A DNA stretch of 64,000 nucleotides from Prosthecobacter sp. (GTDB taxonomy: Bacteria; Verrucomicrobiota; Verrucomicrobiia; Verrucomicrobiales; Verrucomicrobiaceae), in NCBI GenBank assembly GCA_021733925.1, contig JAIPJY010000003.1:62001-126000 (forward strand). The letters are read 5' to 3'. How positions within the stretch are numbered: position 1 is the first letter of the stretch; each line of letters begins with the position of its first letter. Positions 5,565 through 34,417 of the stretch are shown here, in pieces. Below the pieces are notes generated by a model. That model was not told the DNA's origin and ran no database searches. It worked only from the letters and a program-made list of their open reading frames with translations. Both the position numbers and the translations under genes were made by a program.

Positions 5565-8500
5565 AGCACAGCGAGTTTTTGCAGCGCCTGCGTCTGACGA
5601 TCATGAGTCCCAAGGCCAGGCCCAGCAGGAGCAGGCGTGAGGGTTCGGGCACGAGGACGATGGCAATGGTGCCGTTGGTGGTGAAGCTGCTGATGTCCCA
5701 TGAATAGCCTGAGCCGGAAATATCCGGGAGGTCGAGGCCGCTTGATTCGTCGCCATTGCCGGTGAGATAACCGGTGAAGTTGAAGCGGCTGGCAAAGGTG
5801 GGTGAAGCGGAAAGTCCTGACCAGTCGAGCAGATTAAAAACCTCCGGAGCAGTGGGGGTGAAGGCATCTGCTGTGATGGTGAGGTTGCCGTTGAACAGCA
5901 GTATATTCGTGCCGGTGCCCACGATGTTGAGCCGATCGGAGGTGCCACCGGGGTGGATGCCGAGGATAGTCGTGCTGCCTGACTGAAAATCGATGGCACC
6001 AGAACCGGACACTGGTTTGAAGGTGAGCGTGCCGTAGTTGTCTTGAGCCGTGCCATCTCCTGCCTGCACGATAGCACCGCTGCTGGCGGTGAAACTGGAG
6101 CCTTGAATGAAGCCGGTGCCAAGCAGTGTGCCGCCATCTTGCACGGTGACAGCTCCAGTGCCGGTAGTGCCTGAGCCGCTGCTGCCGACTTGCAGCATGC
6201 CGGCGCTGACCGTCGTTGCACCGCTGTAGGTGTTGGTGCCGGTGAGCACCTGTGTGCCTGCGCCTGATTTTGTGAATGCGAGCGTGCCGTCCGTTCCTGT
6301 GCCATCGCCATTGCGCAGTGCGCCGCTGTAGGTTTGTGAGCCGGTAGCGACATTGACGGTGAGTGTCGCGGTCGAAGCACTACCGGATTCGTTTTCAACG
6401 ATGCCTGCGCCGCTGGTGCTGCTCAGGCCGCCGATGGTTTCGTTTTTGTTGTTGAGGCGGAAAATGCCGGCGCTGGCGCCACTGCCTTTGAAGGTGAGGA
6501 TGCTGGTATCGGCGATCTGATCGCTGTTGATGAGTTTCAGTATAGCTCCGGTGGTGCCGTCGCCGATGGTGATATTGCCCGCGATGGCATCGACACCTGC
6601 GGTTTTCGACAGGTCGAGTTCACCGGCATTGACGCTTGAGGTGCCGGTGAAGGTGTTGGCATCTGCGCCGGAAAGCGTGAGCGTGCCGAGGCCGTTTTTG
6701 GTGAGGCCGCCGGAGGTGTTGGCTGCGGTGGTGATCGTCCCCAGCACTGCTCCGCTGCCGCCGCCACCGAGCAAGGCCACGGTGGGAGTGGAGGTGTAGC
6801 CGATGCCAGGATTGCTGATGGTGATGCTCAGCAGCTTGCCATAGGTGGGGCTGGTGGGATCGAGATCCACCGTGGCGAAGGCCGTGGCACCGGAGCCACC
6901 ACCGCCGCTGATCTCCACATACGGAGCGCCGGTGTAGCCGCTGCCACCGTCGGTGACGGGGATGCTGGTGACTCCGTTCCCGGTGGGGGCGTTCAAGGCG
7001 ATGGGGATGGTGACGTTGAAGCCGTTGGTGTTGATCACCGCGCCACCCGCGTAAGTGCCGAAAGCACCGTTGACGTAGGCGGTCATGACTCCGGTGCCGC
7101 CGGTGCCGACTCCGACCATGAGCGTCGTGGTGGTCACTGCTGCCTGCAGGGTTCCGCCATTGAAATTGAGGTAGGCATTGATGGCTGCCCCGGTGCCGTT
7201 GTAGTGAATGATCTGGTTGTTGATCAAGGTGCCTGCGTCGAGGTTGAGGTAAGCGGTTCCGAGCGCCGTGTTGTTGTTTTGCTGGCCGATGGTGATGCTG
7301 TAACCGGCATTGTTCACCAAGCCGCCTGCCACCGTCATGGCTCCCTGCGCCGTGGTGGTGGCTGTGAGTGCACTGCCACCACTGCGGAATCCCAGGGCGA
7401 TGTAGTCTCCGGTACGGAGCACTTGGCCGCCTGTTACAGTGAACTCCCAGCGCTCGTTGCGGAACATGATGTAGTTGGACGTGTTGAGCGTGCCGCCGCT
7501 GACCTGCAGCACGGCAATGGAAGCGGTGGTGGTGCCGTCCAGTGAATCGACCCGTTTGGTGTTGATGGTTCCAGAAGTCAAAAACAGGCCACCGTAGCCA
7601 GTGCCACCGAGGCCGATGCCGGCTTGGGTGTTGGTGGTGGTGAGGTTTAAAGTGCCGCCGCTGACGACGACGGTGCCCTGATAGCCCGCACTGCTGCCAA
7701 TGCCGAGGGTCGTGGTGGAATAATCTGCCCCTGAAATCAGCCTCAGCATCCCCGGGGTGGACACTGCTCCCACTGTGGTGAGAGCGGTGCCATTGGATAA
7801 TGTGCTGCTGATTTCGAGCACGCCGCTGGAGACCGTGATGTTGCCGGCGATGTTGACACTGCCGCTAAGCAGCAGATTGCCCAAGCCTGTTTTGGTGATG
7901 CCGTAGGATCCGCCAGTTGAGGTGATGGCTGACGCGATGGTGAGATCGTGTGCAGCATTGAGGCTGTCATTGATGGCGAAGGTGCGGGTGGCGGTGCCGA
8001 GATCGAGCGTGCCGCCGGTGATCAACGCGCCAAGGGGATTGTTGGTGCTGCTGACGGTGAGCGTGGTGCCGAGGGTCAGCAGTCCGCCGCTGCCGATGTT
8101 GATCGTGCCCTGACTCGCCGCCGTGGAGGTGGCGTCGTAGAAGGTGAGGGTTCCAGAGGTCCAATTGAAGCCGTTCAGCGAGAGGGAGGCAGAGCCATTG
8201 GTGCCGGTGATGGTCAGGGCGGAACTGGAGGAAAGGGCGTTGTTGATGCCGAACTGAAGAATGCCCTCGTTGATCAGCGTGCTGCCTGTGTAGGTGTTGA
8301 CGCCGCTGAGCGTCTGAGTGCCTGCACCGCTTTTGATTAGAGACAGTGTTCCGGCGAGCGTGCCATTGCGCAGCAGACCGCTGAAATCCTGAGTGCCAGA
8401 GACTTTGAGCGTGAGTGAGGCGCTCGTGGCGCTTTCGTTTTCCACGATGCCTGCGCCGCCGGTGCTGCTGAGGCCGCCGATGGTTTCCCCCTTGCCATTG

Positions 8501-10080
8501 AGGCGGAAGATGCCGGCGTTGGTGTCGCTGCCGATGAGGGTTATGACGCTGGTATCAGCGATTTGATCGCTGATGAGGAGCTTCAGCATGGCCGTGGTGG
8601 TGCCGTCGCCAATGGTGATGAGGCCGGCGATGGCATTGAGGCCGGCGGTTTTGGAGAGATCGAGCTCACCTGCGCGGATGAGCGTGAGGCCGGTGTAGGT
8701 GTTGTCCGCCGTGCCGGAGAGCGTCAGGGTGCCGAGCCCCAGCTTGGTGAGGCCGCCGTCGGTGGAGTTGTCCCCGCCGATGTCGGAGTGGGTCAGCGCT
8801 TTGGCAAAAATGACAGCGAAGCCGTTCGTGTCGATCACCGCACCGCCATCACGGACGTTCACGGTGGTCAGGCTGGTGGCCAGCGTCATGACGGTGCCGT
8901 TGGCCTTGAGGGTGCCGCCGTTGAAGTTGAAGATCGAGGCAGCCACCGTGCCGCCGATGATGGTGCGGTTGGTGGCCAGGGTGCCGCCATCGAGATTGAG
9001 CGTGCCTGAACTGGCCGTGTTTGTGGCCGTGTTGGAGCCAAGCAGAATGCTGCCTGTGGACGTGGCGGTCTCGAACAGTCCGGTGCCGGAAACGGTCATG
9101 ATGCTGGCCCCGCTGAGCTCGGTATTCGAGTAGCCCGCTCCGATGCGGATCAGGTTTGTGCTGCTCGTCACGTTCATCGTGCCACCGGAGATGTTGAGAA
9201 AGCCACTGGCTGTGAGGGCGCTGCGGCCCAGCACCAGGCCGGCGCAGCTGGTGCCAATCGTGAGCGTGCCGCCGGTGACGTTGACCGTGGCGCTGGTGGC
9301 TTCACCGATCCGAAAAGTGGATGACGCGCCGGAGAGGTACTCAGTCCCTGAGAAATTGGTGATGCTGCCGCCGGAGAAGGCGGTTTGGCCGGTGGGATTG
9401 GCTGCCGAGGTTCCCAGTGTGCCGGTCACATTAAAGATGCCGCTGGTCACAGATAAACCGTAAGAGGAGGAGTAGCTCGTGCTGCGCGTGTAGCTGCCTG
9501 ACAGATTGGTGATGCCACCGCTGATGATCAGGGTTCCTCCGTCTGTGATGTCGCCTTTGAGATTGAGTGTGCCGGTGCCCGATTTACTGATGTTAAAACC
9601 CGCCCCATTCATGCTGTAGGTGGAATCAAAAGTCAGATTGCCCGAACCGGTGAAGGCCGTGCTGGCAGCCAGGGTTATGTTGGACTGAATCAATGCGAGT
9701 GTATTGGCGTTCGTGACGGTTACTGGGCCGCCAAAGGTCAGGGTATTGCCATTGCCAGCAAGGGTGTAGCCATCGGTGTTGAATGTGAGCCCACCTGCAG
9801 TGATCGCTTCCGTCAGCGTGACCGTCGCCGCAGTGCCGCCAAAGATGGCGACGTCGCTGTTGGCATTGTTCCAAGCCTTCATGACGTTGGACAGGTTCCA
9901 GAATGTGGAGGTCGTGTTCCAGTTGCCGGTGCCGCCGGTGTTTCCACCTGCTGTGCCATCGGCATCCCAAGTCAAACTGGAGGCAGCCAAAGCGAACCCT
10001 GGCAGAGCAAGCAAGACAAGCAGTCGAACACGAATTTTAGAGCCAAGGGGGCTGTGAATAGCGGTGGAAAGGTATGGCAT
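5521..10080 (-). CDS. Autotransporter-type beta-strand repeat protein with PEP-CTERM signal
   Basis: 1519 residues from the ATG at 10080. The body is Gly/Thr/Ser/Ala-rich with many copies of the autotransporter-associated beta-strand repeat pattern (GLTKNGLGTLTLSG..NTFTG, GAGTQVLTGTNTYSG), expected to fold as a long beta-helix. The C terminus carries VPEPSR, a hydrophobic helix and RRRR, the PEP-CTERM signal recognised by exosortase in related bacteria. Unlike its neighbour, the frame runs 20 residues past RRRR and overlaps the convergent gene. The start at 10080 is chosen over the upstream ATG at 10104 because it leaves 30 bp to the 70-bp upstream element, matching 31 bp in the paralogue, and still leaves a signal peptide. 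The last ~190 residues closely resemble those of the upstream paralogue. Probable surface or matrix protein; ligand unknown. Confidence 0.85.
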   Translation of the reverse strand: MPYLSTAIHSPLGSKIRVRLLVLLALPGFALAASSLTWDADGTAGGNTGGTGNWNTTSTFWNLSNVMKAWNNANSDVAIFGGTAATVTLTEAITAGGLTFNTDGYTLAGNGNTLTFGGPVTVTNANTLALIQSNITLAASTAFTGSGNLTFDSTYSMNGAGFNISKSGTGTLNLKGDITDGGTLIISGGITNLSGSYTRSTSYSSSYGLSVTSGIFNVTGTLGTSAANPTGQTAFSGGSITNFSGTEYLSGASSTFRIGEATSATVNVTGGTLTIGTSCAGLVLGRSALTASGFLNISGGTMNVTSSTNLIRIGAGYSNTELSGASIMTVSGTGLFETATSTGSILLGSNTATNTASSGTLNLDGGTLATNRTIIGGTVAASIFNFNGGTLKANGTVMTLATSLTTVNVRDGGAVIDTNGFAVIFAKALTHSDIGGDNSTDGGLTKLGLGTLTLSGTADNTYTGLTLIRAGELDLSKTAGLNAIAGLITIGDGTTTAMLKLLISDQIADTSVITLIGSDTNAGIFRLNGKGETIGGLSSTGGAGIVENESATSASLTLKVSGTQDFSGLLRNGTLAGTLSLIKSGAGTQTLSGVNTYTGSTLINEGILQFGINNALSSSSALTITGTNGSASLSLNGFNWTSGTLTFYDATSTAASQGTINIGSGGLLTLGTTLTVSSTNNPLGALITGGTLDLGTATRTFAINDSLNAAHDLTIASAITSTGGSYGITKTGLGNLLLSGSVNIAGNITVSSGVLEISSTLSNGTALTTVGAVSTPGMLRLISGADYSTTTLGIGSSAGYQGTVVVSGGTLNLTTTNTQAGIGLGGTGYGGLFLTSGTINTKRVDSLDGTTTASIAVLQVSGGTLNTSNYIMFRNERWEFTVTGGQVLRTGDYIALGFRSGGSALTATTTAQGAMTVAGGLVNNAGYSITIGQQNNNTALGTAYLNLDAGTLINNQIIHYNGTGAAINAYLNFNGGTLQAAVTTTTLMVGVGTGGTGVMTAYVNGAFGTYAGGAVINTNGFNVTIPIALNAPTGNGVTSIPVTDGGSGYTGAPYVEISGGGGSGATAFATVDLDPTSPTYGKLLSITISNPGIGYTSTPTVALLGGGGSGAVLGTITTAANTSGGLTKNGLGTLTLSGADANTFTGTSSVNAGELDLSKTAGVDAIAGNITIGDGTTGAILKLINSDQIADTSILTFKGSGASAGIFRLNNKNETIGGLSSTSGAGIVENESGSASTATLTVNVATGSQTYSGALRNGDGTGTDGTLAFTKSGAGTQVLTGTNTYSGATTVSAGMLQVGSSGSGTTGTGAVTVQDGGTLLGTGFIQGSSFTASSGAIVQAGDGTAQDNYGTLTFKPVSGSGAIDFQSGSTTILGIHPGGTSDRLNIVGTGTNILLFNGNLTITADAFTPTAPEVFNLLDWSGLSASPTFASRFNFTGYLTGNGDESSGLDLPDISGSGYSWDISSFTTNGTIAIVLVPEPSRLLLLGLALGLMIVRRRRCKNSLCFKTTRPSWAGYRRA

Positions 10081-10110
10081 GGCAGAGGCTGACATCAGCC
10101 CCATTTAGCT

Positions 10111-10180
10111 AAGCATTCGCGAGACCATGCAACGCGCCGTGCAGACGCTAAAAAAGGCGAAGGAGACCCTTTTTGTGCAC
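10111..10180 (-). promoter_or_regulatory. 70-bp upstream element, copy A (3 x AGAC at 21-bp phase)
   Basis: On the plus strand this runs from AAGCA (10111) to GTGCAC (10180). AGAC cores lie at 10122, 10143 and 10164, exactly 21 bp apart. It aligns without gaps to copies at 18896 and 20029. It fills most of the space between the two large beta-repeat genes and ends 30 bp before the start at 10080. Probable operator or promoter region, read in the minus direction. Confidence 0.7.
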
Positions 10181-10212
10181 TTGCCAAGTCTGGTCAGTGA
10201 GTGCTTTTGAGG

Positions 10213-13200
10213 CTAACGCCTGCGCCTGAGCAACAGCACGCCCAGACTGAAACCCAGCAGCAGCCAGCGGGAAGGCTCGGGCACGAGGATGATGGCGATG
10301 GTGCCATTGGTGGTGAAGTTGCTGATGTCCCAGGTGTAGCCTGACCCTGCAATGTCGGGAAGATCAAAGCCGCTGGTTTCATCGCCATTCCCATAGACCC
10401 AGCCTGTGTAGCTGTAGCGGCTGTCAAACGTGGGGGATGATGCCAGCCCGGACCAGTCGAGGAGATTGAACACTGCCGGCGCGGTGGGAGTAAAAGCGGT
10501 GGCTGTAACGGTCAGACTGCCATTAAACAGGAGTGTGGTGGAGCCGGTGCCCACGATATTGAGCAGATCCGAAGTGCCGCCAGGATTGAGGCCCAGAATG
10601 ATCGTGCTGCCCGACTGAAAATCGATGGTGCCGGAGCCTGAAGCCGGCTGGAAGGTGAGTGTGCCGTAGTTTCCTTGAGCAGTGCCATCACCCGCCTGAA
10701 TGACGGTGCCGCTGGCCGCAGTAAAGCTGGAGCCTTGGACAATTCCTGTGCCAAGGATGGTCGCGCCACTTTGCACCGTGACCTCACCCGTGCCGGTGGT
10801 GCCCATGCCTGTGAGGCCGACTTGCAGGGAACCCGCCTCGATGAGCGTGGCTCCGGAGTAGGTGTTATATCCTCCCAGAACATAGTCTCCTGAGCCGGCC
10901 TTCTTGAGGGCCACCGTGCCTGTGCCGCTGGTGTTGTCCACGATTGAACCCAGATAATAGCCCGAGGTGTCTCCCGTGCCCACGGTCAGAGTGGTGGCAG
11001 TACCGGTGGCGTTGTTGAGAATCGTGCCGCCGGGCGTGCCGAGCAGAACACCCATCATGGCGTCGTAACCGTTCAGGTCCAGGAAGGTCTGGGTATTCAT
11101 GGTCACTGTGGCTGTCGTGGCGATCTGGCTGTCGCCCGCAAGCTGCACGGTAGCGCTGCCGTAGGCGGCACCCACTGTGCCGATGATCAGTTTCGACGAT
11201 ACCGCCACAGCACCGCCTTTTTTCGCCAGCACGAGTATGCCGCTGTTCACTGTGAGCCCCGAAGAGCCGGAGAAGGTGTTGTCGGTGCTGCCACCGAGGG
11301 TTAGCTTGCCGGTTCCGGCCTTGACCACCGAGAGGTTCGCGCCAGTCAATGCACCGTCGAAGGTGGAGTCCGGTGCCGTTTGACTCAGCACGTTGCCAAT
11401 GGTGAGAAGCGAATTGGCCGTGGCAGTGACCGTGCCGCTGCCGTTGAGCGAATTGATCGTCTGTGAGGTACCAAGGGCCAGGGTATTGCCAGCGGCCATG
11501 GTCACCTGGGCAAATGTACCGATGGCGATGGCGTTGTTGAGGTTCAGCCTGATCGCTCCACCTTTGCCAGCCAGATTGATCTGCGTGCCGTCCACCAGAC
11601 TGCTGGCCGCCGATGCAAGGATGATGCTGCTGGCGCCGGTTCCGCTGTTTTGGAAAGTGATGGTGCGTGGTGCGATGGCTTGATCCGTTAGCGCGCCGAG
11701 AGTCAAGGTCGCGTTCGCGCTGGCGGTGCTTTGGACATCAAAGATGGGATTGCCGGGGGCGAGGGATGGTCCGCCAATGGTGATGGTCGTCAGTGTCAGC
11801 CCGATCGTGCCGCTGGTCACGTTGCTGCCTGCTTTTACGGTCAGGGTATTGCCACCGATGATGACCGCGCCCAGCGCGAGTGTCGTGCTGCCTGCCCCAG
11901 TGGTGGCGCGATCAATGATGATGGTCGAATCGGCCAAAACATTCACCGCACCGCCCACTGTGCCGCTGGTGTCAAAGCCCAGGCTCAAGGTGCCGCCGTT
12001 CATGGTCATGGAGCCGGTGCCCACCACGGTCATGGCTGTCAGGGCCTGCAGCCGCAGGATGCCTTCATCGATCTGGTTTGTGCCGCTGCGGGCACTGGCC
12101 GAAACACTGGTGACGGTCAGCGTGCCTGCGCCGAATTTTGTGAGCAGCGCATTGCCGGTGATGCCGCCCGCGTTGTTGATGAGGATGTCTCCTGTGCCGC
12201 CGATTTTGGCGTAGGACCCCTGGACCACGGTGCCCGTGATCGTGCCAAGTGAGGAACTGCTGTTGGTGATGGCACCGCCGCCGTTGAGCCCTGTGCCGCT
12301 GATGGAGCTGAAGTTGCGGTCCGTGCTTTGACCATTGAGATCCACAGTGGCACCGACGCTGATCGTGACGCCGCTGGTGGTGCCCAGAGCATTGGAGTTG
12401 CCCAGCTTCAGAATGCCTGCGCTGACAATCGTGGCACCAGTGTAGGCGGAAGTGGTGGGAGCCAGTGTCAGTGTGCCCAAGCCGTTTTTCGTCAGCGCCA
12501 GAGTTCCGGTGCCGTTGCTCAAGGTGCCGGTGAAGGTCGTGTTCAGCGGTGTGGCGCTGTTCACATTGCCAACGGTCAGAGTGAAGACGCCAGTGGCGCT
12601 GATCGTGCCATTTCCTGCCAGGGAGCCGAAAGTCTGAGCCGCGCCGAGGTTGATCACGCTGTTTCCGTTCACCGTCACTTGCGCCAGCGTGCCCAGGACT
12701 GTGGCGATGTTGAGGTTCAAAGTGACACCGGCATTCGTTCCGCTGTTAATTTTCACCACTGTGCCGTCCACCAGACTGGCCATGGCGGTCGCAAGGGTGA
12801 CGTTGCTGTTGGTGGTGGATGTTCCGGAGTTGCTGAAAGTGATCGTCTTGGCCACGCCCTGGTCGTTCAAGGCACCCAAGGTGAGCGTGGTGATGCCGTT
12901 GGTCGAGGAGGTCGGGCTTTGGACGTCGAACGTGGGGTTGTCGAGAAGCGTGGTGGCACCGAATGTGATGCCAGCAATGGTGCTTGCGGTGGTGACATTG
13001 CTCCCAGCCTGGATAGTCAGGGTCTGTGCCCCGATGGCAAGAACTCCGAGCGTGTGAGTGAGGCCGGCACCGGCGGTGAAGGCATCGGAAACAATGGTGG
13101 AACTGGCAGTGACTGAGACGGGATATGCCACCACCGAAGCTGTGCTGCCGAGGCTTAATGTTCCGCCATTGAGAATGATCGCGGCCGAGGAGATGCCGAT

Positions 13201-16200
13201 GGCGGAAGTTGAGTTGCTGATGCGCAAGGTGCCTTCGTCAATGCGGGTGGCAGCCGTGCGTGTGCTCGCCAGCGCGGTGCCGGCATTGTTGCCCACCGTC
13301 AGAGTGCCCGAGCCGGTTTTGACCAGGATGTTATTGCCGGTCAGCACTCCGGTGGAAGTGATGTTGCCGGTGCCGCCGATGCTGGCTCCGACGCTGCCCG
13401 TGCCATTTCCCAGTCCGATGGTCAGCGCCCCAATGCCGGCATTCGTGACGCTGTTGTTGACCAGTGCTCCTCCGTTGCTGATGCCCGTGCCGTTCAAGGT
13501 GGCGGTATTGATGATGATCTTGCCATTGAGATCGAGAACCCCGCCCACTTGTACCGTTGCGACGGAAGTGCTCATGGCTGCGGCGTTGCCGAGAATCAAG
13601 GTGCCCGCGTTGATGCTGGTGGCTCCGGTGTAGGCATTGGCAACGGTCAGCGTCAGGGTGCCTGCACCGTTTTTGGTCAAGCCACCGGTGGTGGTGTTGG
13701 TGATCGCAACCTGAATGCTCAGACTATCTCCCGCAGCGTCCGTGCCAATCACCAGATCACCACTGCCGGCGGTGGTCAGGCCGGTGGCGGAGCCTCCGTC
13801 TGCGATCACAGCCGCCACGCCGCCGGTGATCAATATGCCACCGGCGGTGTTCGCGCCATTGTTGATCGAGAGCAGTGTGCCGTTGCTGATCGTCAAGGTG
13901 TCACCACCGTTAAATTTCAAACCAGCGTTGACGGTGGCCGAACTCGTCTGCGCAAAGGAGCCGCTGATCAGGTAGGGATTGAGATTTCCTGAGGTCAGGC
14001 TGCTGGTGGCCGTGGTGGTGTCCGCTGCTCCGACAAGTCCTGCGGTGGAGGATGCGAAATCAGCGCCGTTGTAGGTGATGCGCGGGTCTATAATACCATT
14101 CGTGTTGGTGCTGCCGGTGATGGTCACGCTGGTGTTGGCTGGCGATACGATGTTCAGGCCCGAACCCAGTGCGGGGACGGAGAGAGAGGTGAAGGTCAAA
14201 GCATTCGTGCCGGAGGCAGGCGCATCGACCTTCAGCGTGCCACTGCCGGAGGTAAGCGTGAGCGCGCCGAGGGCCTGCGTGCTGGCGGCGGTGGTCCCGA
14301 CATATTCAAAGGTGCCGCTGCCGGTGTAGATCAAACCTGGGACAGCGAGTGGGGTCCAACTTCCCGTTGTGCCATCGCCGAGTTTCAAGGTGCCTGCATT
14401 GATCCAGATGGCCCCTGTGCTGGTATTTACACCTTTGAGCGTCCAGGTGCCCGTGCCGTTCTTGGTCACAGAGCCGGTGGTGGTGCCGATGATGCTGGAG
14501 ATGCTGCCATCACCCGCACCAGCGAGAATCAAGCCAATGCCCGTGCCAGTGATCGTGCCCGCATTCGTGAGATTGAGTGTGCCGCTGTCTGAAGAGATGG
14601 TGACTGCTGAAGTTGCGAGTGTGAGCAGGCCAGTGAAGTTGTTCACGCCGCTGACATTGACCAGCGCACCGGTTTGGATGTGGATGCCGTTGGAGCCTGC
14701 AAAACCTGAGCCGCCATTGAGGGTCAGCTTTTCCGCCGCCGTGGTGATGCCCCCCTGAATTTGCAATGTGCCCCCGTTGGTTACGGAGGTGGTGCCAACA
14801 ATCGAGCCAAGGGCGTTCGTGCTGCGGATGTTCAGGATGCCGGAGCTGACGGTGGTGCTGCCGGTGTAGGAATTGTCTCCTTCCAGAATCAGGGTGCCGA
14901 GAGCGGTCTGAGTGGAATTGCCAGCTACGATGCCGCCGACATTTGTGCCCTGGGTCACATTCCCACTGATGGTGAGTTGGTCGTTTACGGTGGTGAGGGC
15001 CATAGTGCGGGTGGCTGCCACTCCTGTCCCCGTCAGTTGAAGCGTACTGCTGCTGCTGATGGTGCTGACTCCGACAAATGTCATAGTTCCGCCAGTCTGA
15101 TTGATGGTCAAAATCCCGCTGCCAGTGATTGTGGTGCCAAACGAGGAGGAGAGGGTGAGCACGGTTAGATTGTAGCCGTTCAGGTCCAGGGTCGAACCCG
15201 CGCCCAACGTCAGTGCAGTGACCAGCGGAGTGGCCTGGTCACTGGCGCCGAGGCGCAATGTGGCATTGCCCAGCGTGGCGCTGGCTGAATTTCCAATGGT
15301 GAGACTGCCTCCTATCGCAATGGCCCCACCCGTCTTCGCCAGGACCAAGGTGCCCGAGCTGACCGTCGTTATACCGGTATAGGTGTTCGAATCGCTCCCA
15401 TCCAGTGTCAGCGTGCCGAGCCCCAGTTTGGTCAGTGTAAGAGTGCCAGTGCCGTTGGACAGAACGCCGCTGAAATGGGTGTCCGGCAGCGTGTAGCTCA
15501 AGGCGTTGCCGATGGTGAGAGTGAAGGCGCCGGTGGCGGTGACGGTACCGCTGCCAGCGAGCGATCCAAAAGTCTGTGCAGCGCCGAGACTGAGAGTGTT
15601 GCCGGCAGCGACGTTCACTTGCGCGAGGGTGCCCAGTCCACTCGCCACATTTAGATTCAGCGTCAGAGCTCCGCCTGTATTCGCCAAATTCACCTTCGTG
15701 CCATCGACTAGGCTGGTGGCACCTGCTCCCAGTGTGATCGTGCTGGCCGCCGTGCCGCTGTTTTGAAAGGTGATCGTGCTTGGCGCGATGCCCTGATCAG
15801 TGAAGGCTCCCAGAGTGAGCGTTAGCGCGGCATTTGCTGAACTCTGCACATCGAAGGTCGGGTTGCCGGGCCGCATGGAAACTCCGCCGATGCTGACCGC
15901 TCCCAAGGTCAGGCCGATCGTGCCGCTGGTGATGTTTTCGCCCGCCTGCACGGTCAAGGTGTTGGTGCCGATTGTCAGCGTGCTCAGCGTGGTGACGGTA
16001 CCGCCCGCACCCGATGTGGCACGGTCAGCGATGATGGTGCTGTTTTTGAGGAGGTTGATCACATTGGTGAAGGTTGTGGTGGCATCAAAGCCCAGGCTTA
16101 GAGTGCCGCCATTGAGCGCGAAAGATCCGGTGCCAACGGGGGCGATGGAGGCCACCGTTGACTGCAGCCGCAGTGTGCCGGCGTCGATCTGATTTGTTCC

Positions 16201-18864
16201 GCTGCGCGTGCTCGTTGTCGTCGAGTCGATCACGGTGAGCGTGCCGCTGCCTGTTTTGGTCAGCAGCACATTGCCGGTGATGCCGGTGGCGTTGCTGATG
16301 GTGATGCTGCCGGAGCCGCCGATGCTGGTGGAGGTGGCCAGCGCCGTGGTGCCGGTGACAATCGCCGTCGTGCTGCTGCTGTTGATGAGCGCGCCAAAGC
16401 TGCCGACGCCTGTGCCATTGATGGAGGTGAAGCTGCGGTTGGTGGTCTGACCGTTGAGATCCACCGTGGCCCCGGCGCTGATGAGGATGCCGCTCGTCGC
16501 CCCGCCTGCGGCGGTGCTTGCCAGCTTGAGGGTTCCCGCACTTACCGTTGTTGAACCTGTGTAGGTGTTGTTGCCGCCGAAGATCAGCGTGCCGGTACCG
16601 AGCTTGCTCACGGCACCTGCGCCGGTCAGGGCGGCGTTGACGGTCACGGTGCCTGCACCGCCAAAAGTGATCATGGAGGAATAGGAGATGACGCTGGAGG
16701 CCTGGATCGTGAGCGTGGCGGCGGCGTCTGCGGCGATCATTAACATGGCATTCTGCGCGATGGTCCCGGTGATGAAGTTGTCGCCGCTGAGGCTGCGGAT
16801 GGCACCATTGCTGCCATCTCCAAAACCGCCGATGGCCGCGAGGGAGCGGCTGATCGTGACGCCGCCGGAAAGCGCCAGGGTGGCTCCGTCCACCACGGTG
16901 ACCGTCCCCGAGGTGCCCAGCGCCCCGTTGCTGCGGACTTCCAGGATGCCGCTGGAAATCTGCGTGCCGCCGGTGTGTGCGTTGGTTCCTGTCAGGACGG
17001 TGCGTGATCCGGGCGCGCCATTGATCACCAGCGTGACAAGGCCCGTGCCGTTGTTGGCGAGGTTGGAGTTGATGGTCAGCAGTTCGGTGCTCGAATTGTT
17101 GGTGAGGAAGAGCTGCCCGGCGGTGTTGGTCACTGCGCCGCCGGCGGAAAGCGTACTGGTCACCCCTGCGGTTCCTACCGTCAGACTGCGAGCGCCGTTG
17201 ACCAGCTGAATGCCGCCCTGCGTGCCCAAGCGCAGTGTTTGACCCGTGGCCAGGGAAATCTGCCGGTCCGTGGTGATGTCGGCCATGGACAGGGTGTTCA
17301 GGTTCGTGGTGCCTGCATCCAGCGTCAGCGCGCCGGTGGAGCTGCCGGTGATGCCCACATTGGAGGTGACGGCAAAGGGTGCTGTGCTCAGGCTGCTGCC
17401 GGTGGTGTAGTAGATGTCGCCTGCATAGCCGTTGCCCAGCAGTCCACCAGCGGGCAGTGCCCAGCTCCGGCTGCCATTGCCGCCGGTGTAGGTCAGCCAC
17501 GGACCGACGAAACCATCCGCCTGTGTCGTGGTGATGGTGCCCACTGCCGGCGCGACCACGGCCAGCGTGGCGTTGGCGTCGCTGTGTATGAACGCACCCA
17601 GGCTGAGATTGACCGTGCCGCCCACGCCTGAATTGAGCTCCAGGGAGCTGTGCGTGCCGCTGACGATCACATTGCCAAGCCGCTGGCTGTCCGTCTGCCC
17701 GTCCTTGCCGGCGAGGCGCAGCACGCTGACGGAGTTTCCACCGATGAAGTTCAGGTTTCCCGGCGTGGCGAGGCCATGGTAAAGAATGTCGTCCTGCGGT
17801 GAGGTGGCCGCCGTGAAATCAAGGATGGTGATGCCACCGGAGTAGCCGGTGAGGGCGCGGCCCAGGGTGGTGGTCCCGCCATAGGTGTTGGCGGCAGAGA
17901 GCGCCAGGGTGCCGTTTCCCCGGGTGAAGGCAAAACGGGTGAAGCCGAAATTATTGCCGCCATCGGTGATGGGTGAATTGATGACGACGCCGGTCGTCGC
18001 GTTCGCCCCGCTGAAGTTGGTGTGCACTCCCGCATCCGCCGTGAGGGTGATGCCGCCTGACACGATGGTATTGTTGGAGGTGAAGCGTATGGCCCCGTAG
18101 GAGGTGCTGGAGAAAGTCAGGCTGTTGCCATAGCCCGCCAGGTAAAACGGCTGCGTGTAGTTGGGATTGGTTCCGCCAAGCACGACGGAGCCGCCCGCCT
18201 CCACCGCGATGCCGCTGACATTTTGCACGGTATTGGGCGCGCTGAGGGTGGCATAGATGCTGCCAGCAATCGTGAGGGTACCCGTCAGGTCCGGGTTGGT
18301 CGTCATGCCCAGGGTGATGTACTGAAAACTGGTGCTGCTGCCATATTTCTGAATGCGCAGGTTGTTGCTCTTGAGGCGGAGATTGCTGCCGAGACTCACA
18401 AACTGGGAGCCGCCCGATGAACGGTCATCCATCTGAATCAGGCCGTCGGTGCCGAAGTCGAGTATGCGGCCGGCCACATTTCCATTCAGTATGAACTGTT
18501 GCCCCGTAGCGATGGTGCCGGTGGTGACCGCCAGAAATCGAAGTTCTTTTAATACGATGTCTTCGGTGATGCTGATGGGATTGGAGAGTGCAGGAGTCGG
18601 GACGTTCGTGCCGAATTGAGCGATGGCTGACGCCGAATTGACCCAGGAGGTGTTTGCCGTTCCGTTCCACCAGTTGGTGTTAGTGGTGTTCCAGAGAAAG
18701 GTGTTGAGCGGGCTGCTGCCATCCGTGTTTTGGGGGCCTGTGACACTGGTGTTGGAATCCCAAGTCAGTGTCTGGGCAGCTGCGGTGAGGGAGGTCAGCA
18801 AAAACACTGATATCCACAGTTGGCAGATGCGATGTGAGAAACAAACAAAGGTGTGTAGTTGCAT
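10213..18864 (-). CDS. Giant autotransporter-type beta-strand repeat protein with PEP-CTERM signal
   Basis: 2883 residues with an N-terminal signal peptide ending near AAAQ (residue ~31), followed by TLTWDSNT. The body is dozens of beta-strand repeats (GTGTLTLTVANAYTGATSINAGTL type). Superimposed are three long modules of about 280 residues at roughly 888-1170, 1870-2147 and 2258-2545. Each runs from an S.R(S/T)..NQID.G.LRL segment through PTFDVQS, TITFQNSGT, SLVDGT and AQTFGSLAG. The C terminus is VPEPSR, a hydrophobic stretch and RRRR at the very end, a textbook PEP-CTERM signal. Family knowledge: export through Sec and sorting by exosortase, probably to the cell surface or an extracellular matrix. 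It follows the HAD gene on the same strand and has its own copy of the 70-bp element. Ligand unknown. Confidence 0.9.
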   Translation of the reverse strand: MQLHTFVCFSHRICQLWISVFLLTSLTAAAQTLTWDSNTSVTGPQNTDGSSPLNTFLWNTTNTNWWNGTANTSWVNSASAIAQFGTNVPTPALSNPISITEDIVLKELRFLAVTTGTIATGQQFILNGNVAGRILDFGTDGLIQMDDRSSGGSQFVSLGSNLRLKSNNLRIQKYGSSTSFQYITLGMTTNPDLTGTLTIAGSIYATLSAPNTVQNVSGIAVEAGGSVVLGGTNPNYTQPFYLAGYGNSLTFSSTSYGAIRFTSNNTIVSGGITLTADAGVHTNFSGANATTGVVINSPITDGGNNFGFTRFAFTRGNGTLALSAANTYGGTTTLGRALTGYSGGITILDFTAATSPQDDILYHGLATPGNLNFIGGNSVSVLRLAGKDGQTDSQRLGNVIVSGTHSSLELNSGVGGTVNLSLGAFIHSDANATLAVVAPAVGTITTTQADGFVGPWLTYTGGNGSRSWALPAGGLLGNGYAGDIYYTTGSSLSTAPFAVTSNVGITGSSTGALTLDAGTTNLNTLSMADITTDRQISLATGQTLRLGTQGGIQLVNGARSLTVGTAGVTSTLSAGGAVTNTAGQLFLTNNSSTELLTINSNLANNGTGLVTLVINGAPGSRTVLTGTNAHTGGTQISSGILEVRSNGALGTSGTVTVVDGATLALSGGVTISRSLAAIGGFGDGSNGAIRSLSGDNFITGTIAQNAMLMIAADAAATLTIQASSVISYSSMITFGGAGTVTVNAALTGAGAVSKLGTGTLIFGGNNTYTGSTTVSAGTLKLASTAAGGATSGILISAGATVDLNGQTTNRSFTSINGTGVGSFGALINSSSTTAIVTGTTALATSTSIGGSGSITISNATGITGNVLLTKTGSGTLTVIDSTTTSTRSGTNQIDAGTLRLQSTVASIAPVGTGSFALNGGTLSLGFDATTTFTNVINLLKNSTIIADRATSGAGGTVTTLSTLTIGTNTLTVQAGENITSGTIGLTLGAVSIGGVSMRPGNPTFDVQSSANAALTLTLGAFTDQGIAPSTITFQNSGTAASTITLGAGATSLVDGTKVNLANTGGALTLNLNVASGLGTLAQVNVAAGNTLSLGAAQTFGSLAGSGTVTATGAFTLTIGNALSYTLPDTHFSGVLSNGTGTLTLTKLGLGTLTLDGSDSNTYTGITTVSSGTLVLAKTGGAIAIGGSLTIGNSASATLGNATLRLGASDQATPLVTALTLGAGSTLDLNGYNLTVLTLSSSFGTTITGSGILTINQTGGTMTFVGVSTISSSSTLQLTGTGVAATRTMALTTVNDQLTISGNVTQGTNVGGIVAGNSTQTALGTLILEGDNSYTGSTTVSSGILNIRSTNALGSIVGTTSVTNGGTLQIQGGITTAAEKLTLNGGSGFAGSNGIHIQTGALVNVSGVNNFTGLLTLATSAVTISSDSGTLNLTNAGTITGTGIGLILAGAGDGSISSIIGTTTGSVTKNGTGTWTLKGVNTSTGAIWINAGTLKLGDGTTGSWTPLAVPGLIYTGSGTFEYVGTTAASTQALGALTLTSGSGTLKVDAPASGTNALTFTSLSVPALGSGLNIVSPANTSVTITGSTNTNGIIDPRITYNGADFASSTAGLVGAADTTTATSSLTSGNLNPYLISGSFAQTSSATVNAGLKFNGGDTLTISNGTLLSINNGANTAGGILITGGVAAVIADGGSATGLTTAGSGDLVIGTDAAGDSLSIQVAITNTTTGGLTKNGAGTLTLTVANAYTGATSINAGTLILGNAAAMSTSVATVQVGGVLDLNGKIIINTATLNGTGISNGGALVNNSVTNAGIGALTIGLGNGTGSVGASIGGTGNITSTGVLTGNNILVKTGSGTLTVGNNAGTALASTRTAATRIDEGTLRISNSTSAIGISSAAIILNGGTLSLGSTASVVAYPVSVTASSTIVSDAFTAGAGLTHTLGVLAIGAQTLTIQAGSNVTTASTIAGITFGATTLLDNPTFDVQSPTSSTNGITTLTLGALNDQGVAKTITFSNSGTSTTNSNVTLATAMASLVDGTVVKINSGTNAGVTLNLNIATVLGTLAQVTVNGNSVINLGAAQTFGSLAGNGTISATGVFTLTVGNVNSATPLNTTFTGTLSNGTGTLALTKNGLGTLTLAPTTSAYTGATIVSAGILKLGNSNALGTTSGVTISVGATVDLNGQSTDRNFSSISGTGLNGGGAITNSSSSLGTITGTVVQGSYAKIGGTGDILINNAGGITGNALLTKFGAGTLTVTSVSASARSGTNQIDEGILRLQALTAMTVVGTGSMTMNGGTLSLGFDTSGTVGGAVNVLADSTIIIDRATTGAGSTTLALGAVIIGGNTLTVKAGSNVTSGTIGLTLTTITIGGPSLAPGNPIFDVQSTASANATLTLGALTDQAIAPRTITFQNSGTGASSIILASAASSLVDGTQINLAGKGGAIRLNLNNAIAIGTFAQVTMAAGNTLALGTSQTINSLNGSGTVTATANSLLTIGNVLSQTAPDSTFDGALTGANLSVVKAGTGKLTLGGSTDNTFSGSSGLTVNSGILVLAKKGGAVAVSSKLIIGTVGAAYGSATVQLAGDSQIATTATVTMNTQTFLDLNGYDAMMGVLLGTPGGTILNNATGTATTLTVGTGDTSGYYLGSIVDNTSGTGTVALKKAGSGDYVLGGYNTYSGATLIEAGSLQVGLTGMGTTGTGEVTVQSGATILGTGIVQGSSFTAASGTVIQAGDGTAQGNYGTLTFQPASGSGTIDFQSGSTIILGLNPGGTSDLLNIVGTGSTTLLFNGSLTVTATAFTPTAPAVFNLLDWSGLASSPTFDSRYSYTGWVYGNGDETSGFDLPDIAGSGYTWDISNFTTNGTIAIILVPEPSRWLLLGFSLGVLLLRRRR

Positions 18865-18895
18865 AAGTGAATACTTTATTCAGCGCCCCTTCGCT

Positions 18896-18965
18896 AAGCA
18901 CCTGAGAGACCACTCCCGCATTCATGCAGACCCCTAATCGCGCAAAGAAGACGCTATTTGTGCAC
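18896..18965 (-). promoter_or_regulatory. 70-bp upstream element, copy B
   Basis: Runs from AAGCA at 18896 to GTGCAC at 18965. AGAC cores lie at 18907, 18928 and 18949 (21 bp apart). It sits 31 bp upstream of the start of the giant beta-repeat gene and is the only notable content of the gap 18865-19044. A small palindrome (GAATA-aag-TATTC) lies between the element and the ATG. Confidence 0.7.
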
Positions 18966-19044
18966 CCAACGGTTGCAGGTCGGTTGGGCACGAAGATGGC
19001 ACGCTTGTACAGGCTTCACCTGGCATGCACATCAGCATCGGCGG

Positions 19045-19956
19045 TTACTTGGTCATGGCCGGGCGTGGGCGCGGATATGCGATTTCGCTGCGCTGGTCCG
19101 GATGCTTCGCTCCCGGTTTTTTCTGCGCCGAGGCGGTGACGCGGGAGAGAAATTGCAGCCGGCTGCTGCTGGTGCCTGAGCCTCGAAGCTCTTCGAGCAG
19201 TTCATCAACACCCTCCAGCACGCACGTGGGCTGGTACACGTAACTGCTCAAATCTTCGAGGCGTGTGGAACCGGTCAGCACCAGGCAAGCCTGCATGCCG
19301 ACCTCAATGGCACCACGGATGTCCGTCTCCATTGTGTCACCCACCATCATCACTTCTTCGGTGTGGCGCTGCAGCAGCCGCCGGGCGCGCTGAAACATGT
19401 AGGGGTTGGGCTTGCCGAGGAAATAGGCGCGTTGGCCTGTGCTTGCTTCGAGGTAAGCGGCCAGCGCACCTGCGCCGGGACGGGTTACTTCCTTTTTTAC
19501 CGGGCACCAGTTGTCCGGATTGGTGGCCACCAGCCGCGCACCTTTCTCAATGAGTTCATGGGCTTTGGAGAGTTTCTCCGTAGATTGCATCCCTTCACCG
19601 ACGACCACGTAGGTGGGCCGGATCGAATCGTTGGGAATGCCGGCTTTCTGCAGAGCGAGAGTCAGCCCGGCATCCCCCATAACAAAGGCGGTGCAGCAAG
19701 GATGGTTTTCCGCCAGAAACTCTGCGGTGTTCATGGCGGCCGTGTAAAAATGCCGTGCTGAGATGCCGTGGATGCCCAGATGGTTGAGTTTGACGACGAG
19801 GTCTTCAGGCGTGGGCGCCGAGTTGTTGGTGACAAAGACGAAGGGTGTCGAAGTCTCGATGAGATGATGAATGAATTCCGCCGCCTTGGGCAGCAGCTGG
19901 TTTTCACGGTAGATCACACCGTCCATGTCGATCAGCAGTCCTTTGGTTTGATGCAT
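19045..19956 (-). CDS. HAD-superfamily hydrolase, NagD/HAD-IIA type
   Basis: 303 residues from the ATG at 19956. The HAD motif I (LLIDMDGV, nucleophile Asp10 and acid Asp12) lies right after the start. Motif II threonine (FVTNNS), a conserved GKPNP lysine region near residue 180 and motif III/IV VGDTMETDIRGA near 205 complete the NagD-like phosphatase set. Likely substrates are small phosphates such as nucleotides, p-nitrophenyl phosphate or phosphoglycolate-like compounds; the true one cannot be read. An alternative ATG at 19986 lies inside a perfect inverted repeat and adds ten residues before the conserved start. The last ~40 residues (basic, PRPRPAMTK) extend past the usual end. It has its own 70-bp element upstream and lies just downstream of the AraC-family gene. 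Confidence 0.88.
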   Translation of the reverse strand: MHQTKGLLIDMDGVIYRENQLLPKAAEFIHHLIETSTPFVFVTNNSAPTPEDLVVKLNHLGIHGISARHFYTAAMNTAEFLAENHPCCTAFVMGDAGLTLALQKAGIPNDSIRPTYVVVGEGMQSTEKLSKAHELIEKGARLVATNPDNWCPVKKEVTRPGAGALAAYLEASTGQRAYFLGKPNPYMFQRARRLLQRHTEEVMMVGDTMETDIRGAIEVGMQACLVLTGSTRLEDLSSYVYQPTCVLEGVDELLEELRGSGTSSSRLQFLSRVTASAQKKPGAKHPDQRSEIAYPRPRPAMTK

Positions 19957-19979
19957 GGCTTCAGAGGGGATTAGGGTTT

Positions 19980-20012
19980 GGAGCATGCTTCACAGAACTG
20001 TCTGCATGCTCC
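19980..20012. repeat. Perfect 9-bp inverted repeat at the HAD gene 5' end
   Basis: GGAGCATGC (19980-19988) and GCATGCTCC (20004-20012) with a 15-nt loop. The upstream candidate ATG (19986-19984) lies in the stem. In the RNA it would hide that start, leaving the ATG at 19956 accessible. Confidence 0.6.
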
Positions 20013-20028
20013 TATGGACTCTTGCTTT

Positions 20029-20098
20029 AAGCATGCGCGAGACCAGCACTCTGGCCATGCAGACCCCGAATCGTGCAAAGCAGACGCTCTTTGTGCAC
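20029..20098 (-). promoter_or_regulatory. 70-bp upstream element, copy C
   Basis: Runs from AAGCA at 20029 to GTGCAC at 20098. AGAC cores lie at 20040, 20061 and 20082 (21 bp apart). It is located between the stop of the AraC-family gene (20105) and the HAD gene. Its third unit also forms CAAAG/CTTTG around the AGAC core. Confidence 0.7.
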
Positions 20099-20104
20099 TC
20101 TGGC

Positions 20105-20974
20105 TCAGGAAGACTGTACCACCCGGCTGCGATAGGTCAGCGGGACGCAGTGCTGGTGCTCTCTGAACTGTCGCTGGAAATGCGCTGGTGATACAAAGCC
20201 GCAATCCATGGCGATCTGGCTGACGGTCAGGTCTGTTTCAGCGAGAAGGAGGCACGCACGTGCGATGCGAAGTTCGTTCACATACTGGGGCACGGTGCGT
20301 CCCGTGCTTTTCTTGAACAGACGGCTGAAGGCGCTTTTACCCAGACTCACGATTGCCGCCAGATCAGCTACATAAATTGGCTCCGGCAGATGGGATGCAA
20401 TGAATTCACAAGCCATGCTGATGCGGTCGGAGGTGCCGGGGCGTGGCTGCGGCAGGACGGCGGATGAGATTTCCTGCAGATCCTCTGAGTTTGACAGCAG
20501 ATCGAGCAGCTGCAGCAGGAGGATCACGCGCTTCATGCCATGAACGAGCAGCATTTCCTGGACGATGCGTGTGGCTGTCAGCCGGGTGATGCCTGTGACT
20601 TCCAGGCCCTGGTCGGCACGTTGGAACAACCTCCGCACGGGTATCATGGAGGAGCGCTCCATCCAGTCTTCATAACCTGGAAGCTGAGGCATGAACTGGA
20701 CGACAATGGCTTCCACAGGCGTAATTGATGAACCTGAAGCGCTGTGGTTCCGGTAGTCATGCGGCACATTGGAGCCCATAAACACGAGGTCTCCCGGAAG
20801 GATAGGGGAGATGTTGTTGCCCACAAGGCGTTCGGAACCACCCTTCAGAACCAGCGTGATTTCACACTCCGGGTGGTAATGCCACACGCAGCCAAAATCC
20901 TGCCCGCGCACGACCTCGCAAACCACCGGTTCGGCAGCTGCGAGAGGTGAGAGCATTTCAACAATGGGTTTCAT
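20105..20974 (-). CDS. AraC-family transcriptional regulator with cupin sensor domain
   Basis: 289 residues. The N-terminal half is a cupin-like ligand pocket (FGCVWHYHPECEITLVLKG, PGDLVFMGSNVPHDYRN: the His/Glu pattern of sugar-sensing AraC proteins). The C-terminal ~95 residues hold two helix-turn-helix units: a first near residues 200-225 (VADLAAIVSLGKSAFSRLF) and a second with LTVSQIAMDCGFVSPAHFQRQF, the AraC signature. Family knowledge: such proteins bind direct-repeat half-sites about 21 bp apart and control nearby operons. The three 70-bp elements just downstream have exactly this period, so it is the natural candidate for their regulator (inference). It is followed on the same strand by HAD and the two beta-repeat genes. 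Confidence 0.92.
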   Translation of the reverse strand: MKPIVEMLSPLAAAEPVVCEVVRGQDFGCVWHYHPECEITLVLKGGSERLVGNNISPILPGDLVFMGSNVPHDYRNHSASGSSITPVEAIVVQFMPQLPGYEDWMERSSMIPVRRLFQRADQGLEVTGITRLTATRIVQEMLLVHGMKRVILLLQLLDLLSNSEDLQEISSAVLPQPRPGTSDRISMACEFIASHLPEPIYVADLAAIVSLGKSAFSRLFKKSTGRTVPQYVNELRIARACLLLAETDLTVSQIAMDCGFVSPAHFQRQFREHQHCVPLTYRSRVVQSS

Positions 20975-21274
20975 TGACTGCTGGTGCTGGGAACGTGCAT
21001 GTCCTTATGTCTGCCATCTCAGATGGCGAACGTGCGAATTCGTTCATGAAACTAATACGAATCAAAGCTGCATACAGAAGTTCATTTATGGGATGAATGA
21101 TTGAAGGCAGAGTCGATTTAAGGCGCAAAAGGAGTGAGAAAGGGCGGGTGTAAATAAATCTTCAGACAAGGGGTCAGGCTGCATGGCTATGCAGCATACG
21201 TGCCACCTGTTGGCGCTACGCCTATGCTCCGCACAGATGTGTGTTCATCTGCGACAATCGTATCACTCAGCCCC
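20975..21274. other. 300-bp intergenic region with several palindromes
   Basis: No gene is seen between the AraC-family start and the DUF5722 stop. It holds GCCATCT-C-AGATGGC (21013-21027), a direct repeat GAACGTGC (20991 and 21028), and two small hairpins: GCTGCAT/ATGCAGC (21178-21195) and CAGATG/CATCTG (21234-21251). The hairpins lie downstream of the DUF5722 gene but lack a T-run. Confidence 0.5.
20991..21037 (-). promoter_or_regulatory. Candidate operator upstream of the AraC-family gene
   Basis: The perfect palindrome GCCATCT-C-AGATGGC is flanked by two direct copies of GAACGTGC 37 bp apart, 17-63 bp before the start at 20974. Position and symmetry fit a regulatory site; the binder is unknown. 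Confidence 0.35.
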
Positions 21275-22498
21275 CTATTGGTCCCACGCTTGCAAGCCAG
21301 TCACCGGCAGCAGTGTATCGGCAGCGGCACGCCATGCAGGAGTGCCGGCTTTCTTGAAGAGTTCGTAAATGAGTTTCTTGCTGTATGGATCCGCGACAGA
21401 GTTTGGTGCATTGCGCCATAACCCAAGCCGCAGGCCGCCCTCATGGGCATGATCCACATGGCGGTGGTAAATGAAGGCGTCGATGGTGGGCAGAGTTTGA
21501 ATCTTCTCCCAGGCATATGCGAAGGCTGTGGCCTGAAGCTTTTCACCCTCGGGCGTGAGCAGAGTGTGGAAGCCCTGCTCGCTGAGGATGATGCGGCGCG
21601 GCTTGCCGTTAAAGAGCAGTTCAGGGCGCTCGAGATGCTTGGGCAGCACCTCCAGGTTCTTGAAGGTGACCTTGTTGGTGTTGTCGTCGTGCGTGACCGT
21701 TTTGTCGGCCCAGGCACGTGGATTGCCGAGGTTTTCGGGGTAGGGGTGCCAGGCGACGTTCCAGTCGAAATCGCCACGCTCACGCACCAGACGCGCGAAG
21801 GTGTCGAGAAAGTCGCGGCCCGGAGTGGCTTCCTGCGGGCTCACGTTGTGCATGCTGCTGCTCCAATGGTGATCGGAGGAGAGGTAGGTGCGGGCGTTTT
21901 GCGAGTGTTTGCGAATGGCGCTGTGAGCGATGCGGAAGGCTTTTTCGTATTCGCTGGCGGCGGTCTCCAGCGGCACAAGGCCCATGTTGTTCCAGAGGAA
22001 GTGTGAATTAACCTCGTTGCCAATGATCCAGCCCCATACGCGGCCATGCTCGGGATGTGCACCGCTCCAGCGTTCGGCCAGCATGCTGATGACGGCGTCG
22101 AGGAAACGGTTGGTGGTGTTCACGGCACCGACCGTGAATTTGTAATCCTTGCGATGGCCCGGATGCAGCACCACGGCATCGATGGCCGGGTTCTTCGAGG
22201 GATAAGCGATGATGATGAGATAGACGACGATGCCTGCGTCCGAGAGCGGTTTGATCTGACGGTCCAGCGATGTGAGGTAGTTCTCATTCCACACAAATTC
22301 GCCCGCCCCCGGTTTCGACTTGGGGGTGTAGAGTGCGGTGAGGTTTACATTGATCGTTGCATGGTGAATGCCCAGCGACAGTGCGTCGTCCGTCATTTGC
22401 ACCTGGATGCCCTTCACGTCGGGAGGCGTGGGAAAAGGATCGGTGTTTTGCGCACAGGCGATTTGCGCGAGGAGGAGGCTGAGGAGAAGATGACGCAT
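21275..22498 (-). CDS. DUF5722 family secreted protein (TIM-barrel-like)
   Basis: 407 residues from the ATG at 22498, chosen because it starts a signal peptide (MRHLLLSLLLAQIACAQ). The upstream in-frame ATG at 22603 would place 35 non-signal residues before it. Family landmarks: KGIQVQMTDDALSLGI, TINVNLTALY, LDRQIKPLSDAGIVV, WGWIIGNEVNSHFLW (about residue 160), WHPYPENLGNPR, LSEQGFHTL (about 309). The paired Asn-Glu and later Glu-Gln fall where retaining glycoside hydrolases carry acid/base and nucleophile, so a carbohydrate-active role is plausible but not shown. It is secreted, and its start codon overlaps that of a divergent small gene. Confidence 0.8.
   Translation of the reverse strand: MRHLLLSLLLAQIACAQNTDPFPTPPDVKGIQVQMTDDALSLGIHHATINVNLTALYTPKSKPGAGEFVWNENYLTSLDRQIKPLSDAGIVVYLIIIAYPSKNPAIDAVVLHPGHRKDYKFTVGAVNTTNRFLDAVISMLAERWSGAHPEHGRVWGWIIGNEVNSHFLWNNMGLVPLETAASEYEKAFRIAHSAIRKHSQNARTYLSSDHHWSSSMHNVSPQEATPGRDFLDTFARLVRERGDFDWNVAWHPYPENLGNPRAWADKTVTHDDNTNKVTFKNLEVLPKHLERPELLFNGKPRRIILSEQGFHTLLTPEGEKLQATAFAYAWEKIQTLPTIDAFIYHRHVDHAHEGGLRLGLWRNAPNSVADPYSKKLIYELFKKAGTPAWRAAADTLLPVTGLQAWDQ
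22481..22486 (+). promoter_or_regulatory. Shine-Dalgarno for the small Cys-rich gene
   Basis: GAGGAG ending 10 bp before the ATG at 22497. It supports translation of the 53-codon ORF although it lies inside the divergent gene's signal-peptide codons. Confidence 0.5.
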
Positions 22499-34377: not shown

Positions 34378-34417
34378 ATTATTTTCGTGAAGTGAGAGGC
34401 ATGGTTGATTGTTAAAT

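Follow-up and report, generated by a model that had tools for sequence, protein, structure and literature searches.

A conserved two-part promoter module predicted ahead of PEP-CTERM protein genes in Prosthecobacter and its candidate AraC-family regulator

Genes and elements of the locus

The DNA analysed in this study (the window) is a stretch of 64,000 nucleotides from an uncultured Prosthecobacter sp. It contains three gapless 70-bp elements, every one of which is located directly 5′ of a minus-strand gene (Table 1). They occupy three successive gaps in a minus-strand series composed of the genes for an AraC-family regulator, a HAD phosphatase, a 2,883-aa PATR protein and a 1,527-aa PATR protein. 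The 5′ edges of the elements are 6, 32 or 79 bp past the stop codon of the preceding gene, and the 3′ edges are 6, 31 or 42 bp ahead of the next called start, in agreement with the original prediction that the copies lie immediately upstream of minus-strand genes. Both PATR proteins show PATR repeats and a C-terminal sorting signal. A likely start of the 1,527-aa PATR gene is the ATG at 10080. In the HAD gene, the start conserved across all 7 genomes is not 19986 but Met-11 (19956). The shorter PATR protein had been described as a small beta-repeat protein, which does not fit its actual length.

The pairwise identity among the three copies is 45, 50 and 53 of 70 positions. When the pattern AGAC-N17-AGAC-N17-AGAC was searched with at most one mismatch, four matches were obtained in the window. 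Three of them are exact and correspond to the elements, and the fourth is located at 3365-3410 on the minus strand with one mismatch. Shuffled windows gave 0.14 matches on average and one at most. The three 70-bp copies and their AGAC positions were confirmed as first reported.

Table 1. Elements, their parts and neighbouring genes in the window
Feature	Position	Strand	Description
Element 1	10111..10180	minus	precedes 1,527-aa PATR gene; R2 model 59.2 bits
Element 1 parts	operator 10137-10179; core TGG 10125-10127, TGCT 10112-10115	minus	
Element 2	18896..18965	minus	precedes 2,883-aa PATR gene; R2 model 76.4 bits
Element 2 parts	operator 18922-18964; core TGG 18910-18912, TGCT 18897-18900	minus	
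Element 3	20029..20098	minus	precedes HAD gene; R2 model 75.3 bits
Element 3 parts	operator 20055-20097; core TGG 20043-20045, TGCT 20030-20033	minus	
AraC-family regulator	20105..20974	minus	289 aa, cupin + HTH_18; candidate operator binder
PATR / PEP-CTERM protein, 1,527 aa	5521..10104	minus	PF12951 and TIGR02595 above cut-off
PATR / PEP-CTERM protein, 2,883 aa	10213..18864	minus	PF12951 and TIGR02595 above cut-off
HAD-IIA phosphatase	19045..19986	minus	TIGR01460 140.4 bits (cut-off 100.15)

The leaders of these genes carry features of their own. An inverted repeat, GGAGCATGC ... GCATGCTCC (9-bp arms, 15-nt loop), spans the first ATG in the HAD leader at 19980-20012, and its arms are partly kept in relatives. 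Several PATR leaders carry a short GCTGAnnTCAGC-type palindrome just ahead of the start codon, at 10087-10100 in the window and also between element and start in L057, L059 and L113.

Copies, downstream genes and architecture of the element

Tight and loose pattern searches of the source genome found no copy beyond the three in the window. Across 56 genomes, the pattern search was positive in 8, one of them the source genome; the others include same-genus relatives, and G049 gave a single match outside the genus. The regions round 16 AraC orthologues were taken, and an iterated matrix was run over them and the window. It gave 26 matches, of which 25 were retained and one inside an ORF (L063, 25.4 bits) was dropped, and 0 matches on the sequences read backwards. 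A first sequence-only model was made from 24 of the 25 copies, leaving out a truncated copy of G020. Over 48 genomes of the genus, this model found further strong copies unlinked to the AraC locus. The fourth copy of the source genome (C23:21449) is unlinked as well, and it precedes a gene for a 69-aa helix-turn-helix (HTH) protein. A second model, made from 40 copies of 16 genomes, was run on 288 genomes of the order with 40 bits as the lower limit of a strong match. It gave 41 strong matches in 16 of the 288 genomes, namely the 40 copies and the truncated one; the strength of the 40 is by construction, as they are the training set, while the absence of other strong matches is not. The filters of the model search were strict and weak copies can be lost. 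Single weak matches of 21.8–24 bits in G094, G066 and G001 were not counted. Within the genus, strong elements are present in 14 of the 48 genomes. The source assembly (7.3 Mb, 127 contigs) is 93% complete, and its four copies are therefore a lower bound.

The genes 3′ of the 40 aligned copies are PATR genes in 24 cases, the 69-aa HTH gene in eight and HAD genes in seven; the gene behind the orphan copy of G016 is not recognisable. The PATR calls are based on Pfam matches above the cut-off (8), BLAST similarity to the window proteins (14) and matches just below the cut-off (2; 22.7 and 24.5 bits against 27, both frames being cut by contig ends). The HAD proteins match the window HAD protein at 93–100%, and the one of G029 ends short at 204 aa. 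In G020, the truncated element (L051:162-231) has kept its operator and lost its core, and continues directly into the 3′ end of the HAD gene, which looks like the result of a deletion of that gene. The copies unlinked to AraC precede the small HTH gene in eight AraC genomes, as well as moved or other PATR genes; for example, a PATR gene away from the AraC locus in G058 still has an element. An in-frame ATG is located 29–33 nt past the core TGC in 15 of the 24 PATR genes, 6–20 nt past it in seven and more than 200 nt past it in two. The conserved HAD start is 61–76 nt away from the core in 7/7, and the HTH gene starts 57–62 nt after the first base of TGG in 8/8.

The position of the module before non-homologous genes is a direct observation. 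Since one upstream module precedes three non-homologous gene families, regulation is indicated rather than duplication of a gene together with its flank. Because the copies recur between genes, 6–79 bp past stop codons, one might think of structured leader RNA or of a mobile repeat in intergenic DNA. However, six strands folded no better than their shuffles (z from –1.07 to 0.61), the consensus fold reached –1.92 kcal/mol with one covarying pair of eight, and there was no Rfam match in 5000-22000 at E up to 1. The genome-wide scan likewise revealed no more than four strong copies in 7.3 Mb, all located just 5′ of a gene and not scattered or intragenic. Both readings are thus extremely improbable, and it is supported that the 70-bp element is a regulatory site and not a mobile repeat.

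The 69-aa protein behind the element is of the HTH_Tnp_1 type, TnpA-like, and its gene is preceded by the element in eight genomes (L254-L261). Its distant relatives are encoded directly behind a C-terminus that looks PEP-CTERM-like by eye in G067, G056, G031 and G022 (loci L262, L263, L265 and L269). This suggests a small PEP-CTERM-linked family of putative regulators around the 69-aa protein. A promoter of an sRNA behind a pentapeptide-like gene was considered and dropped once the 69-aa HTH ORF was seen.

The alignment divides the element into two blocks. The distal block is a putative operator of 43 bp without an indel in 40/40 aligned copies; its majority sequence in the minus-strand sense is TGCACAAAnAGCGTCTnCTTTGCGCGATTTGGGGTCTGCATGA. 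The proximal block, TGG-N9-TGCT, is invariant in 40/40 copies. The spacer between operator and core is 9 bp in 26 copies and 10 bp in 14. The promoter-proximal AGAC is the complement of a GTCT whose first base is the last G of TGG. These rigid and variable parts are directly visible in the alignment, and from them we predict that the element is a two-part module composed of a rigid 43-bp operator and a core promoter.

The copies had been explained as a tripartite site, in which three equal AraC half-sites are placed at 21 bp and an ordinary promoter lies beyond the element. The AGAC triplet is indeed exact in all three window copies, and in every unit at least 36 of the 40 copies retain the G and C of the GTC core. 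On the other hand, an exact GTCT (sense strand) is present in 32/40 copies at the distal unit, 17/40 at the middle and 11/40 at the proximal unit, and all three are exact in 7/40. The claim of a uniform 21-bp spacing is correct for the window copies and for the distal-to-middle step (40/40), but not for the middle-to-proximal step, which is 21 bp in 26/40 and 22 bp in 14/40, the fourth copy of the source genome being one of the latter. The tripartite pattern therefore characterises the window copies and those of some near relatives, but not the element family. As the spacing between the distal and proximal parts varies and a conserved –10-like box beyond the element was not seen by eye in the alignments, three equal half-sites are very improbable. 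The self-similarity of the operator as a direct repeat is weak (p 0.046 at shift 21, p 0.017 at shift 20, p 0.20 for the best of all shifts). The operator also contains GCACAAA-N10-TTTGCGC, which is an imperfect inverted repeat (p 0.055 for the best inverted-repeat score).

At least 29 PATR reading frames are encoded in the source genome (150 of 408 candidates scored), and frames of 10,656 and 9,031 residues are found on its contigs C66 and C98 (G000). A sigma-54-like promoter for all PATR genes was considered and rejected. Of the 27 frames outside the window, 26 were scanned, and in no case was the core located at promoter position: TGG-N9-TGCT matched three times, twice inside an ORF and once some 240 nt ahead of the first in-frame ATG, with several ORF starts uncertain because some frames continue into non-PATR-like sequence. 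The circuit is narrow. The proposed surface-protein regulon is supported in that 24 of the 40 copies precede PATR genes, and it is narrower than first thought in view of these 26 frames. Out of at least 29 PATR frames, the module would place two under common control together with a phosphatase and a small HTH protein.

Co-occurrence of the element and the AraC-family gene

The AraC-family protein of the window has an HTH_18 / HTH_AraC domain (PF12833, 78.8 bits) with an N-terminal sensor domain, a cupin (PF07883, 33.2 bits against a cut-off of 27.2); PF02311 is also above its cut-off at 25.5 bits. Its gene and the element were searched in two runs, each over 288 order genomes sampled under identical settings, and their co-occurrence was observed directly. 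The gene is present in 15 of the 16 element-bearing genomes. All of the 15 best AraC matches belong to element genomes, and the next 15 to genomes without a strong element. The exception, G016, has the orphan strong element and only a 42% AraC paralogue; this genome is 77% complete and its site is decayed.

Identity alone does not separate the two groups, because the AraC protein of the carrier G024 shows 59% and that of the non-carrier G060 shows 60%. In the tree, a branch (85/71; 82% of bootstrap trees) separates the AraC proteins of the carriers from the rest. The recognition helices also differ. They read [LM][GS][KR]S and CGFVS in 15/15 carriers, and LSES and CGYP in 5/5 non-carriers, these being the aligned ones of the 15 non-carrier orthologues found. 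G024 has the carrier helices though its DNA-binding domain is 66% identical to that of the window, against 68–72% for the non-carriers. The five aligned non-carrier genes, that of G070 included, adjoin other genes, and no element was found in their fetched regions.

The carrier genomes are related to one another. In a proxy tree of a single bEBP orthologue, not a marker set, which was present in 25 of 30 loci, the element requires four changes over the 25 genomes. G001 and G004 are nested among the carriers and have no AraC gene, no strong element and no small HTH gene; G001 has a single weak match of 21.8 bits. An independent-pairs test on 24 genomes (G063 was dropped for its long branch) gave only three pairs; on average, 2.5 of them showed AraC and element together, and none showed them apart. 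So small a number does not reach significance, and for AraC against the unlinked copy the test decides neither way. Considering this distribution, the adjacent AraC-family protein is the best candidate for the operator binder, and the small regulon would most likely be controlled by it. The co-occurrence in 15 of 16 carriers and the differing recognition helices speak in favour of the regulon idea of the original prediction.

The core promoter and a model for the control of the regulon

The GG and GC of the core are 10 bp apart in 40/40 copies, which is the –24/–12 spacing of sigma-54 promoters. Such a GG-N10-GC pattern was reached at 90% conservation by 122 of 20,000 column shuffles. The consensus –24 box TGGCA is present in 0/40 copies; position –22 is C in 37/40 and positions –23/–22 are never CA. 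The sigma-54 consensus given in the available part of PMC12316311 is TGGCACN5-7TTGCT, and according to the same part E. coli glpQp (TGGACT) is a validated promoter departing from it. The genus itself provides a reference: a conserved TGGCACG site with GG-N10-GC is located beside rtcR in 6/6 fetched loci (L330-L335). It reads TGGCACG-N3-CTAGCAWTA, is sigma-54-like, and precedes, in the loci that showed it, a gene whose product starts with MASKSLF; in four of the six loci the ORF caller extends a longer frame over the site. These sites were scored against the sigma-54 consensus. Overall, it is possible that the core is a sigma-54 promoter, and we lean slightly against it. No part of the module is more interesting, or less certain, than the sigma-54-like core.

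If it were a true sigma-54 promoter, the operator could be an enhancer for an NtrC-type bEBP encoded elsewhere, and AraC an uninvolved neighbour. The invariant GG-N10-GC, the core position ahead of the start codons and the inverted repeat in the operator agree with this possibility, and five bEBPs are encoded in the source genome. Moreover, a sigma-54 cis site accompanies PEP-CTERM genes in Proteobacteria (available part of PMC1569441), and the pepA gene of Aquincola tertiaricarbonis is RpoN-dependent with TGGCAC/CTGCTT boxes (available part of PMC9850573). However, bEBPs were found in 48/48 genomes of the genus against strong elements in 14 of these, and –23/–22 are never CA in contrast to the conserved TGGCACG beside rtcR. 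None of the source genome's bEBP types was seen to be confined to carriers among the matches listed; the types were judged by scores and frame lengths, unaligned except the one used for the tree, and the comparison covered bEBPs other than the degenerate one of the window (P0005). A dedicated bEBP limited to element genomes was sought and not seen among the matches listed (E below about 1e-48). PrsR was not found, as the best of the five bEBPs scored 406.6 bits with TIGR02915 against a cut-off of 502.6. Control by such a bEBP is accordingly rather unlikely. A response-regulator bEBP is encoded at 33022-34608 on the minus strand of the window; its AAA+ domain reads LFGQTAIFNRVSG without a GAFTGA-like loop and therefore it may not work through sigma-54.

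Several known systems resemble the module in part. Direct-repeat sites of the AraC/XylS family, such as araI1-I2, Pm of XylS and the MelR sites, have half-sites about 20–21 bp apart, and these promoters use sigma-70-type cores. The element may share this tandem spacing, and with a transcription start close to its end it would occupy the usual position of such activators; unlike in those promoters, the invariant core does not resemble a –10 box. AraC proteins are not known to activate sigma-54 promoters, and therefore the pairing of AraC control with a sigma-54 core is an awkward one. The PrsK/PrsR site of Proteobacterial PEP-CTERM genes, as given in the available part of PMC1569441, shares a –24/–12-like core 5′ of PEP-CTERM genes and a conserved activator site upstream. 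That system includes PrsR and has a 17-nt motif 1 that ends in TTTACA, followed by a spacer of about 63 nt. In contrast, the Prosthecobacter element has a 43-bp operator 9–10 bp from the core, another sequence and another phylum, and is tied to AraC; its operator consensus contains neither TTTACA nor the 17-nt motif 1 about 63 nt before the core. With regard to Aquincola pepA, likewise as excerpted in PMC9850573, the –12 box CTGCTT is similar to the TGCTT found in many copies and the target is a PEP-CTERM gene in both, but its –24 box is TGGCAC and the Prosthecobacter copies have TGG followed by other bases, never TGGCA.

Taken together, we cautiously favour an AraC-controlled two-part promoter with an operator, a sigma-54-spaced core and a joint regulon. 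Each 70-bp element would be a two-part promoter module for the gene after it. The AraC-family neighbour would probably bind the 43-bp operator as two tandem half-sites 21 bp apart, and the core TGG-N9-TGCT, 9 or 10 bp past the operator, would serve as a promoter with –24/–12 spacing. In this way, AraC, perhaps via its cupin domain, would co-ordinate two PEP-CTERM beta-repeat surface proteins, the HAD phosphatase and the unlinked 69-aa HTH protein. The AraC binding, the sign of the regulation, the signal and the sigma factor are what we infer. A related and decidedly unlikely possibility is that AraC governs sigma-54-type promoters, its tandem sites running into the –24 box and either gating the sigma-54 polymerase or aiding a general bEBP. 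The overlap of the AraC sites with the –24 box would then account for TGGTC instead of TGGCA, and the arrangement, if true, would be a verrucomicrobial counterpart of PrsK/PrsR control of PEP-CTERM surface proteins.

Judged from conservation, the element is a real, conserved two-part module and the predicted promoter of a small regulon. The open-licence PMC literature gave no title on such a module in Verrucomicrobia among the matches listed. According to the available part of the 2006 paper (Haft 2006; PMC1569441), the PEP-CTERM sigma-54 cis site (motif 1 and motif 2) was found only in Proteobacteria, and further PEP-CTERM regulators and motifs remain to be found. The control of PEP-CTERM surface proteins outside Proteobacteria was thus left open in that part of the paper. 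The AraC-controlled two-part promoter favoured here would give Verrucomicrobiaceae a concrete module open to testing, in which one genome offers a candidate regulator together with four putative promoters.
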